This document shows, piece by piece, positions 10,335-13,343 of a stretch of DNA of 46,291 bases. The DNA lies in assembly GCA_002727675.1 (NCBI GenBank), contig PBXQ01000077.1, positions 1 through 46,291 on the forward strand. The letters run 5' to 3'. Numbering within the stretch: the first letter of the stretch is position 1; each line of letters starts with the position of its first letter. Below the pieces are notes generated by a model that was not told the DNA's origin, ran no database searches, and worked only from the letters and a program-made list of their open reading frames with translations. The translations under genes and the position numbers were made by a program. The DNA is from Thermoplasmata archaeon. Lineage in GTDB: Archaea; Thermoplasmatota; Poseidoniia; Poseidoniales; Thalassarchaeaceae.

Positions 10335-10508
10335 ATGCCTAAAATTAGTTTGGACATGCCTAACGAACTACTCGAAGATTTACGATTACATGTTGGAGAT
10401 ACAAAAAAATTCGTTAGTGTAGCGGATGCCATAAGGACAGCTTGCAGGAAAATGCTAGATCAATTGGACGATATTGACAAACGACATGGTAGAATAGGTG
10501 GTGAATAA
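10335..10508 (+). CDS. Ribbon-helix-helix (CopG/NikR-type) DNA-binding protein, 57 aa
   Basis: This gene is below the ORF-track cut-off. The translation starts MPKISLDMPNELLEDLRLHV, continues FVSVADAIRTACRKMLDQLD and ends in IDKRHGRIGGE. A basic/hydrophobic beta-strand (KISLDMP), helix A (ELLEDLRLHV), a turn with FVSVADAIR and helix B (RTACRKMLDQL) are the ribbon-helix-helix layout. It has only the DNA-binding domain, with no ligand-binding ACT domain as in full NikR. There is no Shine-Dalgarno before the ATG, so the mRNA is probably leaderless. The stop nearly touches the folE start, placing it first in the preQ0 operon and making it a candidate local repressor. Confidence 0.85.
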   Translation: MPKISLDMPNELLEDLRLHVGDTKKFVSVADAIRTACRKMLDQLDDIDKRHGRIGGE

Positions 10509-10509
10509 T

Positions 10510-11088
10510 TTGATTACTAGAAAGGAAGCAGAAGATGCAATTGAGACCATAATTCGCTATATTGAAAATAATAATGGCGAACTAAGAGAGGGTGTCATGA
10601 AATCACCTTGTAGGGTTATTGATTCATATGATGAGATTTTTTCAGGATATTCAGAAGACCCAAATGAGGTATTAGATGCCACATTCAATGCAGAGGGTTA
10701 TGACGGAATTGTACTTCTTCGTGACATTGAATTTACTTCTACTTGTGAGCATCATTTACTACCATTCAGTGGCAGAGGTCATGTTGCATATATTCCGACC
10801 GATCGTATCGTTGGGATTAGTAAGTTAGCACGTATTCTTGAAATGCATGCTAGAAGATTACAAAATCAAGAACGAATTACTAAATCAGTTGCTGATGATT
10901 TGGAGAATAATTTATCGCCATTGGGTTGTGCAGTAATTCTTGAAGCAAGCCATGGTTGTATGCAATGCAGAGGGGTAAAAAAACAAAATTCAATTATGAC
11001 AACTAGTGCCATGAGGGGTGTGTTTTTTGATAAATCTGAAGCTCGTAGTGAACTAATGCAACTTATTCGTAGTAATCCTCTATCATAA
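10510..11088 (+). CDS. folE: GTP cyclohydrolase I (FolE type)
   Basis: It opens and rearranges GTP to 7,8-dihydroneopterin triphosphate, the first step toward preQ0 and also folate-type pterins. The family motifs are complete: TCEHHLLPFSGRGHVAYIP with zinc Cys and His, GISKLARILEMHARRLQNQERIT, and HGCMQCRGVKK with the second zinc Cys. From TTG at 10510 it is 192 aa. AGGTGG at 10496-10501 sits about 8 nt upstream, favouring TTG over the GTG at 10498 given by the track. This is the bacterial/eukaryotic type I enzyme, whereas many archaea use the unrelated-sequence type IB (MptA/FolE2). Confidence 0.95.
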   Translation: MITRKEAEDAIETIIRYIENNNGELREGVMKSPCRVIDSYDEIFSGYSEDPNEVLDATFNAEGYDGIVLLRDIEFTSTCEHHLLPFSGRGHVAYIPTDRIVGISKLARILEMHARRLQNQERITKSVADDLENNLSPLGCAVILEASHGCMQCRGVKKQNSIMTTSAMRGVFFDKSEARSELMQLIRSNPLS

Positions 11089-11102
11089 TTAAGGTGATTT
11101 TC

Positions 11103-11804
11103 ATGGACACTGAAACTCCTGAACTTGTAGCTTTACCATTAGTCCCTATTATTGATGAATCTATTATACCCGATAAATACCCCAATGATGATGATGACCC
11201 TCTAAATAATAAATTTCCAGTAGTTGAAATCTTTCATTCCGTTCAAGGAGAGGGGTACCATGTAGGAACCCCATCAATTTTCATCAGATTCGGAGGATGT
11301 AATCTAGCATGTGAATGGTGTGATACAGAATTCGATAAGTGGGAAAATCTAAAACTTAGACAAATTATTGATGTGTTACAACAATGGAATTGTAATCGTA
11401 TTGTTCTTACTGGCGGAGAACCTGCTCTTCAGGATTTGGCAACTATTTACAATATTTTACATCCAATGGGTTACAACATAGCCATCGAAACAAATGGTAC
11501 AATTGAAATCCCCGAAGGTGTTGTTGATTGGATATGTGTTTCACCTAAAAATCAGATATACCCTACAGTTAAAATCAGACAAAAATCCGGTGATGAATTA
11601 AAAGTTGTATATTGTGGACAGGACCTAGGTATGTATGATGAACTAAAAAGTGGTTTTGACCATCACTTCCTACAACCATGTTACATTGAAAACGAAACAG
11701 TCGAGGTAAACGGCTCCAACTTCAAGGCAGTCGAGAGTGTGGTAAAGGCAAACCCTGGTTGGAGGCTCAGTCTACAGACTCATAAATGGATGGGGGTGCT
11801 ATAA
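11103..11804 (+). CDS. queE: 7-carboxy-7-deazaguanine synthase (radical SAM)
   Basis: It converts 6-carboxytetrahydropterin to 7-carboxy-7-deazaguanine with S-adenosylmethionine and a 4Fe-4S cluster. The cluster motif is GGCNLACEWCDTEF with Cys near 66, 70 and 73 (CX3CX2C). It is preceded by EIFHSVQGEGYHVGTPSIF, and TGGEPALQD lies on the SAM-binding side. From ATG at 11103 it is 233 aa. AAGGTGA at 11091-11097 is the ribosome site, so the GTG at 11094 in the track is probably not used. The first 38 residues before FPVVEIF are an unusual acidic, Pro-rich extension. It overlaps the queC start by 19 bases. The last stretch of the gene is clearly richer in GC than its first half. Confidence 0.95.
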   Translation: MDTETPELVALPLVPIIDESIIPDKYPNDDDDPLNNKFPVVEIFHSVQGEGYHVGTPSIFIRFGGCNLACEWCDTEFDKWENLKLRQIIDVLQQWNCNRIVLTGGEPALQDLATIYNILHPMGYNIAIETNGTIEIPEGVVDWICVSPKNQIYPTVKIRQKSGDELKVVYCGQDLGMYDELKSGFDHHFLQPCYIENETVEVNGSNFKAVESVVKANPGWRLSLQTHKWMGVL

Positions 11805-12892
11805 TCCGTTCTGTAATGGCGTTCTCAGGTGGAATGGATAGCACCGGACTACTGTTGCGTCTACTGTCAGATGGACACACTGTTAGTTGTATATCCTACG
11901 ACTATGGACAGAAGCATAGAATAGAGATTGAAAGGGCAGAAAAAAACATCGCTTATCTTTCATCACATGGGATATCAGTTGAGCACAGAGTCGTTAATCT
12001 AAGTTCAGCTGTTGGACTATTACATTCTGCACTAACCACTGAAGATTATCAAGTACCTCAAGGACACTACGAAGAGGAACAGATGAAGGCCACAGTTGTA
12101 CCTAACAGAAACGCAATATTCACATCAATACTGTATGGATACGCACTTAGTATTTCAATTAGGGAGGATACTGACGTAGAGATCGCACTGGGAGTCCATT
12201 CAGGAGACCACACTATTTATCCGGATTGCAGACCAGAATTCTATGATTCAATAACAGAATCATTCGCATTGGGCAACTGGGGCTCAGAAAGAATTTCCAT
12301 GAATCTCCCATATATTGACCTCGATAAGGAGGCTATTCTAAGAGACTCACTTAAGTCATGCGAAAGTTTAGGATTAGACTTCGACACCGTATTCACAAAC
12401 ACTAACACTTCATACAACCCTGATTCAGAAGGCAGATCATCAGGTAATAGCGGTGCTGACGTCGAAAGGATACTAGCATTCCATGCAATTGGACGCAAAG
12501 ACCCTGTTCAATATGTTGATTCATGGAGTGAGGTTCTAAGAGGTGCATTAAAATCACAATTAAGGTTTCATGTTATGAAGGAAAACGGGACAGAGAGACC
12601 ATTCACAGGAGAATATGACAGCCACTATGAAGATGGTAAATATTACTGCGCTGGATGCGGTAGGAAACTATTCGTGTCTGATGACAAATTCGACTCTGGT
12701 TGTGGCTGGCCTGCATTTTCTCGAGAAGCAGATGAGGCACAGATTATCCAAATTAAGGACACATCCCATGGAATGAATAGAATAGAGGTACGATGTAGTG
12801 GGTGCGACTCACACTTAGGCCACCTTTTCCACGAGAGCAGAGGTCCTAGATACTGTATCAACTCAATTTGCTTGAATTTTGAGAGGGATTAA
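11786..12892 (+). CDS. queC: QueC-MsrB fusion: 7-cyano-7-deazaguanine synthase domain plus methionine-R-sulfoxide reductase domain
   Basis: Residues 1-255 are QueC, which makes preQ0 from 7-carboxy-7-deazaguanine, ammonia and ATP. The PP-loop FSGGMDST (13-20), YDYGQKHRIEIERA, TVVPNRNAIF and HSGDHTIYPDCRPEF are all present. The usual C-terminal zinc site TCY...GCGxCxxC is replaced by TSY and SSGNSGAD, so the four Cys positions become S209, S219, S222 and D225. Residues ~268-368 are a complete MsrB: CAGC and CSGC zinc pairs (288/291, 337/340), FDSGCGWPAF, GHLFHE, and catalytic C357 in RYCINS. MsrB reduces methionine-R-sulfoxide. The start is ATG 11786, overlapping queE, or ATG 11816. No frameshift is needed for the fusion. 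Whether the QueC half is still active is open. Confidence 0.92.
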   Translation: MDGGAIIRSVMAFSGGMDSTGLLLRLLSDGHTVSCISYDYGQKHRIEIERAEKNIAYLSSHGISVEHRVVNLSSAVGLLHSALTTEDYQVPQGHYEEEQMKATVVPNRNAIFTSILYGYALSISIREDTDVEIALGVHSGDHTIYPDCRPEFYDSITESFALGNWGSERISMNLPYIDLDKEAILRDSLKSCESLGLDFDTVFTNTNTSYNPDSEGRSSGNSGADVERILAFHAIGRKDPVQYVDSWSEVLRGALKSQLRFHVMKENGTERPFTGEYDSHYEDGKYYCAGCGRKLFVSDDKFDSGCGWPAFSREADEAQIIQIKDTSHGMNRIEVRCSGCDSHLGHLFHESRGPRYCINSICLNFERD

Positions 12893-12893
12893 T

Positions 12894-13343
12894 ATGACTA
12901 CTAGAATTAGAAGATGGGTAGAAACCGATACCGGACACAGAGTCCCTAATCACAAGAGTAAGTGTAGGCACATACATGGCCACAGATACCGTTGGGAAGC
13001 AGAAATAGAGGGCGAGGTAGTTACTGAAAGAGGAGTGTCAGAAGAAGGAATGTTAATCGATTTTTCAGATATTTCAAGAATCCTAAAAGAATATATCCAC
13101 GATATTGTAGACCATTCATTCCTTGTTTATGAGGGTGATTTAGAAGCCATCGCTGCATTGGATGCAATGGGACCTGAACACAGAACAGTTGTACTGCCAT
13201 TTATCCCCACTGCTGAAAACCTTGCCAAGTGGGCATTTGAAAAAGTAGAACCTCACATTTCAACCTCATATGGTAACACTCTAAGATTAACTGCAATGCA
13301 TGTGCGTGAAACCCCAAAATCATGGGCCACTTGGAAAATATAA
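12894..13343 (+). CDS. queD: 6-carboxy-5,6,7,8-tetrahydropterin synthase
   Basis: It converts dihydroneopterin triphosphate to 6-carboxytetrahydropterin, the step between FolE and QueE. From ATG at 12894 (GAGAGGG upstream) it is 149 aa. The sequence DTGHRVPNHKSKCRHIHGHRYRW holds the zinc His residues (15, 28, 30) and the catalytic Cys (24). FIPTAENLAKWAFEKV and MHVRETPKSWATW complete the fold. It lies one base after the queC-msrB stop and closes the operon. Its stop abuts the trmJ stop from the other strand. The GHRVPNHKSKC form of the motif resembles bacterial and phage QueD more than I would expect for a typical archaeal one; this is recollection, not a search. Confidence 0.94.
   Translation: MTTRIRRWVETDTGHRVPNHKSKCRHIHGHRYRWEAEIEGEVVTERGVSEEGMLIDFSDISRILKEYIHDIVDHSFLVYEGDLEAIAALDAMGPEHRTVVLPFIPTAENLAKWAFEKVEPHISTSYGNTLRLTAMHVRETPKSWATWKI

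Follow-up and report, generated by a model that had tools for sequence, protein, structure and literature searches.

A zinc site of four cysteines is treated as a hallmark of QueC, and a requirement for zinc has been ascribed to the enzyme (PMC9508795; PMC13329287). A locus of a Poseidoniales (Marine Group II, MGII) archaeon, in which a QueC domain lacking these cysteines is joined to an MsrB domain, raises the question of whether such a protein can still make preQ0 and whether the loss of the zinc site is tied to the fusion. The locus lies on contig C76, in a stretch of 46,291 nucleotides that was analysed as a whole (here the window), from a genome (G000) of 1.57 Mb that is 70.6% complete. 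The gene and its parts are as follows.

11786..12892, + strand: queC::msrB fusion gene, a single open frame with an ATG start, 368 aa (PF06508 and PF01641)
11810..12487, + strand: QueC domain, aa 9-234 (PF06508, E 4e-41; fold match to 2pg3 and 3bl5)
12410..12460, + strand: former zinc site S209/S219/S222/D225, with Y210 kept (alignment, E. coli numbering)
12524..12583, + strand: predicted continuous helix, aa 247-266, bridging both domains (AlphaFold2 model)
12557..12883, + strand: MsrB domain (SelR), aa 258-366 (PF01641, 145 bits, E 9e-43; TIGR00357)
12701-12703, + strand: MsrB C306, the second (recycling) Cys (alignment; invariance across MsrB domains)
12854-12856, + strand: MsrB catalytic C357 (alignment; invariance across MsrB domains)

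The initial annotation had described one uninterrupted frame for a QueC domain and a full MsrB domain, and this is borne out: there is no internal stop, and both Pfam domains score far above their cut-offs (141.1 bits against a curated cut-off of 22 for PF06508). The MsrB half reaches 142.5 bits with TIGR00357, above the cut-off of 113.05. The QueC half scores 135.8 bits with the QueC equivalog model TIGR00364, below the cut-off of 150.3, but this shortfall is not diagnostic of zinc loss, because the cysteine-bearing relatives L226 and L227 also fall under the cut-off (127 and 125 bits). An assembly artefact is ruled out as the origin of the fusion, which recurs in 65 of 134 loci of the class in independent assemblies; single-cell-style contig titles, such as AG-461-G23 and AH-273-F07, are found among the carriers.

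For E. coli QueC we relied on the sequence that we take to be the reference, and its letters fit the motif numbering published in PMC13329287. Alignment places C188, C197, C200 and C203 of the E. coli protein at S209, S219, S222 and D225 of the window protein, confirming that all four zinc cysteines have been replaced, as first read from the motifs TSY and SSGNSGAD. The window QueC lacks the C(x)8CxxCxxC zinc site of canonical QueC (it has S/S/S/D) and is therefore filed as a zinc-site-free variant and not as a canonical member. The PP-loop FSGGMDST and the HSGDHTIYPDC segment are kept and read as originally stated. The replacement extends to the whole order, since the zinc cysteines are kept in 0 of 129 distinct Poseidoniales QueCs; C188 is Ser and C203 is Asp in all 129, C197 is Ser in 122, and C200 is Ser or Thr in 128. 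Because the same Ser/Thr/Asp set recurs across these 129 proteins, the change is a fixed replacement and not decay. The QueC signature comprises SGGxDS, YxQxHxxE, VPxRN, YPDC, K165 and the essential Y189 in the zinc region, and the E. coli alanine mutants Y35A, R99A, Y131A and Y189A are inactive (2026 family study, PMC13329287). Y35, Q37, H39, VPxRN, P132, D133, C134, K165 and Y189 are kept in 129/129 Poseidoniales QueCs, E42 and Y131 are kept too, bar one unread cell (X) each, and SGGxDS, YxQxHxxE and YPDC are likewise present throughout, two X cells excepted. Y189 corresponds to Y210 of the window protein, which adjoins the first lost cysteine and is never changed among the 129.

The MsrB half has zinc cysteines in two CxxC pairs (C288/C291/C337/C340) and its catalytic Cys in RYCxNS. 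That this half keeps its four zinc cysteines and catalytic Cys had been noticed at the outset and holds across relatives: 66 fused and 38 separate MsrB domains show no change at these residues or at C306; because of this invariance, the fused half is expected to be an active MsrB. In close pairs of fused genes, dN is much lower than dS for the QueC half and the MsrB half alike (about 0.05-0.15 in pairs with a readable dS), which indicates that purifying selection is strong on the QueC half and the MsrB half of these pairs. The loss of all four zinc ligands would fit a QueC half that is a decaying, inactive relic retained through the MsrB fusion alone, but this is barely credible, given that unfused copies are conserved as well, that dN/dS is low in the QueC half, and that the protein has invariant catalytic residues and no second QueC beside it in the genomes. 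A pathway-wide sparing of zinc is also unlikely, since CEHH/HGCM is intact in FolE, HIHGH in QueD, and the set of zinc cysteines in MsrB.

The QueC loci compared come from collections at order, class and phylum level and from viral collections. The class contributes 134 loci that differ in QueC sequence: 65 carry the fusion, 39 a separate msrB immediately downstream, 23 show no msrB in the stretch at hand, and 7 lie at a contig edge. The separate msrB usually overlaps queC by about 9-40 nt in the open-frame comparison, and nearly all these loci, fused or not, have the folE-queE-queC-queD setting. The proposal that cysteine loss was coordinated with the fusion is refuted by this distribution: the 129/129 Poseidoniales QueCs are zinc-free whether fused or unfused, so that cysteine loss does not track the fusion, and the same cysteines are missing from msrB-less and viral QueCs and from the unfused, msrB-less QueC of g23, a genus of the sister order ("MGIII" in one record). 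Close archaeal QueCs without MsrB that also lack the zinc cysteines, named in the initial annotation as evidence against coupling, therefore exist. A canonical zinc site is found in another sister-order genus (G196, locus L170) and in the 30 best-scoring loci from the rest of the phylum. A QueC tree from which the zinc-loop columns were left out requires at least 3 changes of zinc state and at least 7 of fusion state, with all Poseidoniales remaining zinc-free; the deep branches are weakly supported and these counts are rough minima. Comparison of the sequences thus indicates that fusion and cysteine loss are separate events. The linker of the fused proteins falls into two length classes, 25 and 39 residues, which suggests more than one fusion event, or later insertion.

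An independent zinc loss in g23 was considered and rejected, because on the tree its QueC falls among those of Poseidoniales; for the same reason, g23 probably acquired QueC from Poseidoniales, by transfer between marine archaeal orders. The g23 loci are L144, L165-L169 and L106, and L106 and L167 have the same sequence, which reads TCY with one Cys at the first position.

The co-occurrence of both features in the window gene, and the single continuous helix modelled across its two domains, would suit a fused MsrB that replaces the zinc site, through fold support or its own zinc, with fusion and cysteine loss being one change. This is very unlikely, as the same cysteines are missing from unfused, msrB-less, g23 and viral QueCs, the fusion state has switched 7 times or more on a tree whose Poseidoniales are zinc-free throughout, and MsrB keeps its own four cysteines whether fused or separate; as a general cause of zinc loss, MsrB compensation is refuted by the distribution. 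The structure models point the same way. The AlphaFold2 model of the fusion has a mean pLDDT of 91.7 and a pTM of 0.88, with 91-94 in the zinc-free loop, and an unfused QueC of the window's own genus is modelled with equal confidence (pLDDT 93.7, loop 91-93), although model confidence is weak evidence on stability. The earlier suggestion that MsrB stabilises QueC thus finds no support in the models or in the zinc-free unfused relatives. A Foldseek search with the fusion model returned MsrB structures first, then QueC 2PG3/3BL5 (TM by target 0.74-0.76) and Cap9.

The closest QueC relatives found outside the class Poseidoniia are viral, at about 41-56% identity. The zinc site is intact in the phage QueCs L226, L227, L229, L231, L233 and L291 (TCYDPDxEGRSCGKCGSC type), and in L227, L229, L231, L233 and others, at 41-46% identity, the loop reads THTCYDPDxEGRSCGKCGSCVERLEAF. 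None of these phage proteins is fused to MsrB, and their TCYDPDxEGRSCGKCGSC loop has the same length as the Poseidoniales loop TSYNPDxxGRSSGxSGAD; because the nearest cysteine-bearing loop is equally long, the Poseidoniales loop arose by point substitution only. Other viral QueCs (L225, L230, L228, L232 and that of the cultured Flavobacterium phage vB_FspM_immuto_2-6A) lack the zinc cysteines like the Poseidoniales proteins; none is fused to MsrB here, and those of immuto, L228 and L232 differ in loop inserts. The immuto QueC without zinc cysteines lies at L305:7983-8864 (NC_055915.1; TNTSYKPIKWYSRPET...). The 6.5-kb IMG/VR contig L225 encodes a terminase, FolE, a TGT-like transglycosylase and a QueC that is zinc-free and shares 53% identity with that of the window, a gene set that looks like 7-deazaguanine DNA modification. 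An E. coli-like viral QueC (L302:4977-5741; THTSYDGKYPPTDMNHSN) is also without zinc cysteines, possibly a further independent case.

The fusion gene stands in the order folE-queE-queC::msrB-queD on one strand, which makes up the complete GTP-to-preQ0 pathway.

10498..11088, + strand: folE, GTP cyclohydrolase I, first step of the preQ0 pathway (PF01227, 1.5e-62; TIGR00063 over cut-off)
11094..11804, + strand: queE, 7-carboxy-7-deazaguanine synthase, radical SAM (TIGR04508; conserved operon position)
12894..13343, + strand: queD, 6-carboxytetrahydropterin synthase (PF01242, 8.5e-28; TIGR03367)

The TIGR04508 match of queE (3.7e-43) is under the curated cut-off yet the best among several QueE models, and queD scores 83.1 bits with TIGR03367 against a cut-off of 89.25. 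queE and queC::msrB share 19 nt. The listed start of queD is TTG 12879, but ATG 12894, which follows the queC::msrB stop by two bases, is the more probable one. The other neighbours are ABC transporter genes and a SpoU methylase; no CD-NTase or qatA/qatB/qatD stands next to queC::msrB, and no defence genes are among the adjoining genes.

The initial annotation had held that a second canonical queC in the genome would refute its reading. G000 yielded none, and neither did the Poseidoniales genomes examined, further PF06508 matches being weak PP-loop proteins; because G000 is only 70.6% complete, the relatives carry this argument. ArcTGT is present in 29 of 30 relatives and reaches 413 bits in the window genome (cut-off 350). 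A member of the ArcS family PF17884 occurs in 20 of 21 genomes, and QueF above its cut-off in 0 of 21. ArcS acts on preQ0-tRNA, transferring lysine onto preQ0 (PMC11298593), and therefore the pathway needs the finished nitrile. We conclude that the gene likely encodes one bifunctional protein, made up of a working preQ0 synthase free of the zinc site and an ordinary, catalytically complete MsrB. Of the explanations first offered for the cysteine loss, a QueC that folds without zinc is thus supported, and to judge from its sequence the domain evidently dispenses with the site. A changed chemistry is not indicated, because all other catalytic residues and the downstream ArcTGT and ArcS are kept. 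A QueC half that goes no further than the amide (ADG), or that couples CDG to a different partner, would agree with the missed TIGR00364 cut-off and with the low identity (25-29%) that the fold comparison gave with QueCs of known structure, but is improbable for a protein that, unlike QatC, keeps all canonical signature residues, shares its operon with the CDG-pathway genes folE-queE-queD, and occurs beside the preQ0 users ArcTGT and ArcS with no other QueC to supply preQ0. The zinc-free QueC may also hold a metal by other residues, or carry out a partial reaction only.

For the working preQ0 synthase, the conserved motifs suggest that the QueC half would convert CDG to ADG and ADG to preQ0, each step ATP-dependent as usual in QueC, by means of the PP-loop, YxQxHxxE, VPxRN, YPDC, the Lys and the essential Tyr. 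The preQ0 would pass to ArcTGT and then ArcS to give archaeosine in tRNA. The former zinc loop is presumably held by the conserved Ser-Ser/Thr-Ser/Thr-Asp set, perhaps through hydrogen bonds, and, as QueC is presumed to work without it, the zinc site would be structural and replaceable in the Poseidoniales lineage. The MsrB half would derive from a separate msrB directly after queC, often with an overlap of a few bases, through in-frame fusion, or re-splitting, several times; the zinc-free QueC does not depend on these fusions.

The fused gene is out of keeping with its own genus, the other members of which have an unfused QueC 65-68% identical to that of the window, and mis-binning was suspected for this reason. 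The window matches its own genus in folE (80-81%), queE (68-72%), queD (77-81%), the SpoU methylase (71-82%) and the other flanks, and the best match of an 829-aa gene at 22 kb distance is there too (79-80% versus 70-73% in g3/g7). The window queC is 70-77% identical to fused genes of other genera versus 64-68% to its own genus, and the window msrB 66-85% versus 47-50%, with switch points in DNA identity at about 11,500-11,650 and about 12,850-12,900. A mis-binned contig is thus rejected, as only queC::msrB is foreign. These identities suggest that the fused gene arrived laterally and replaced the resident queC in an otherwise vertical operon, a replacement which implies that both forms, fused and unfused, perform the same function.

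A link between 7-deazaguanine synthesis and MsrB, raised in the initial annotation as unfamiliar, does exist as a conserved gene link, since the order queC-msrB-queD is kept with msrB fused or separate; nothing relevant on QueC-MsrB was found in the literature. MsrB could be tied to 7-deazaguanine synthesis in function, by repairing oxidised Met residues of QueC or QueE or by making archaeosine synthesis responsive to oxidants. msrB is fused to or directly follows queC in 104 of 134 class loci, in two families, and the MsrB catalytic residues are fully kept; however, in 23 loci the operon of the zinc-free QueC has no msrB in the stretch at hand, no literature link was found, and co-location may be plain co-expression, leaving such a tie doubtful. 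It is similarly doubtful that the two halves form a redox-linked unit in which MsrB would keep QueC or the radical-SAM enzyme QueE working under surface-ocean photo-oxidative stress, with the change from the oxidisable Cys4 site to Ser/Asp being part of the same adaptation and not caused by the fusion.

The window QueC has the fold, PP-loop, YxQxHxxE, VPxRN, YPDC, Tyr189, Lys165 and queD/queE operon in common with canonical QueC (PF06508 cluster 1; 2PG3, 3BL5), and differs in its replaced zinc cysteines, the appended MsrB and a score below the NCBIfam equivalog cut-off. It keeps the QueC motifs fully, whereas the LarE and GMP synthase clusters of PF06508 have cluster-specific motifs. Cap9 of type IV CBASS (structure 9NTO matches the window protein) and QatC share the QueC-family fold, but they keep the zinc cysteines and have a defence role, whereas the window QueC has lost these cysteines and no defence genes were seen beside it; Cap9 joins CDG to another partner or stops at the amide, and the same has been proposed for QatC. 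The MsrB half is a full domain with the CxxC pairs and both Cys of MsrB (SelR, TIGR00357; 6SYM, TM by target 0.75-0.77). The fusions solved among the PDB matches are MsrA-MsrB (3E0M, 5FA9, 7E43), whereas the window MsrB sits on the C-terminus of QueC. No prior report of a zinc-site-free QueC or a queC-msrB fusion was found in the open-access literature.

Of these results, the zinc-site-free QueC clade is the more interesting. The pathway appears to operate without the zinc site throughout an order of abundant marine archaea, as well as in one genus of the sister order and in several viruses, with the essential Tyr kept beside the lost site; whether zinc in QueC serves structure alone can thus be put to a direct test. 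Repeated fusion of queC and msrB, with its unfused and overlapping stages, offers a natural series for operon neighbours becoming one protein.

A minority of Poseidoniales genomes, some of them 86-92% complete, show no queC match, owing to real absence or assembly gaps. A locus filed under a Phycisphaerae bacterium MAG (L049, NZFX01000056.1) carries a Poseidoniales fusion gene 73% identical to that of the window and is probably mis-binned. G456 and G165 each have two Poseidoniales-type queC copies on different contigs, reflecting duplication or strain mixing.
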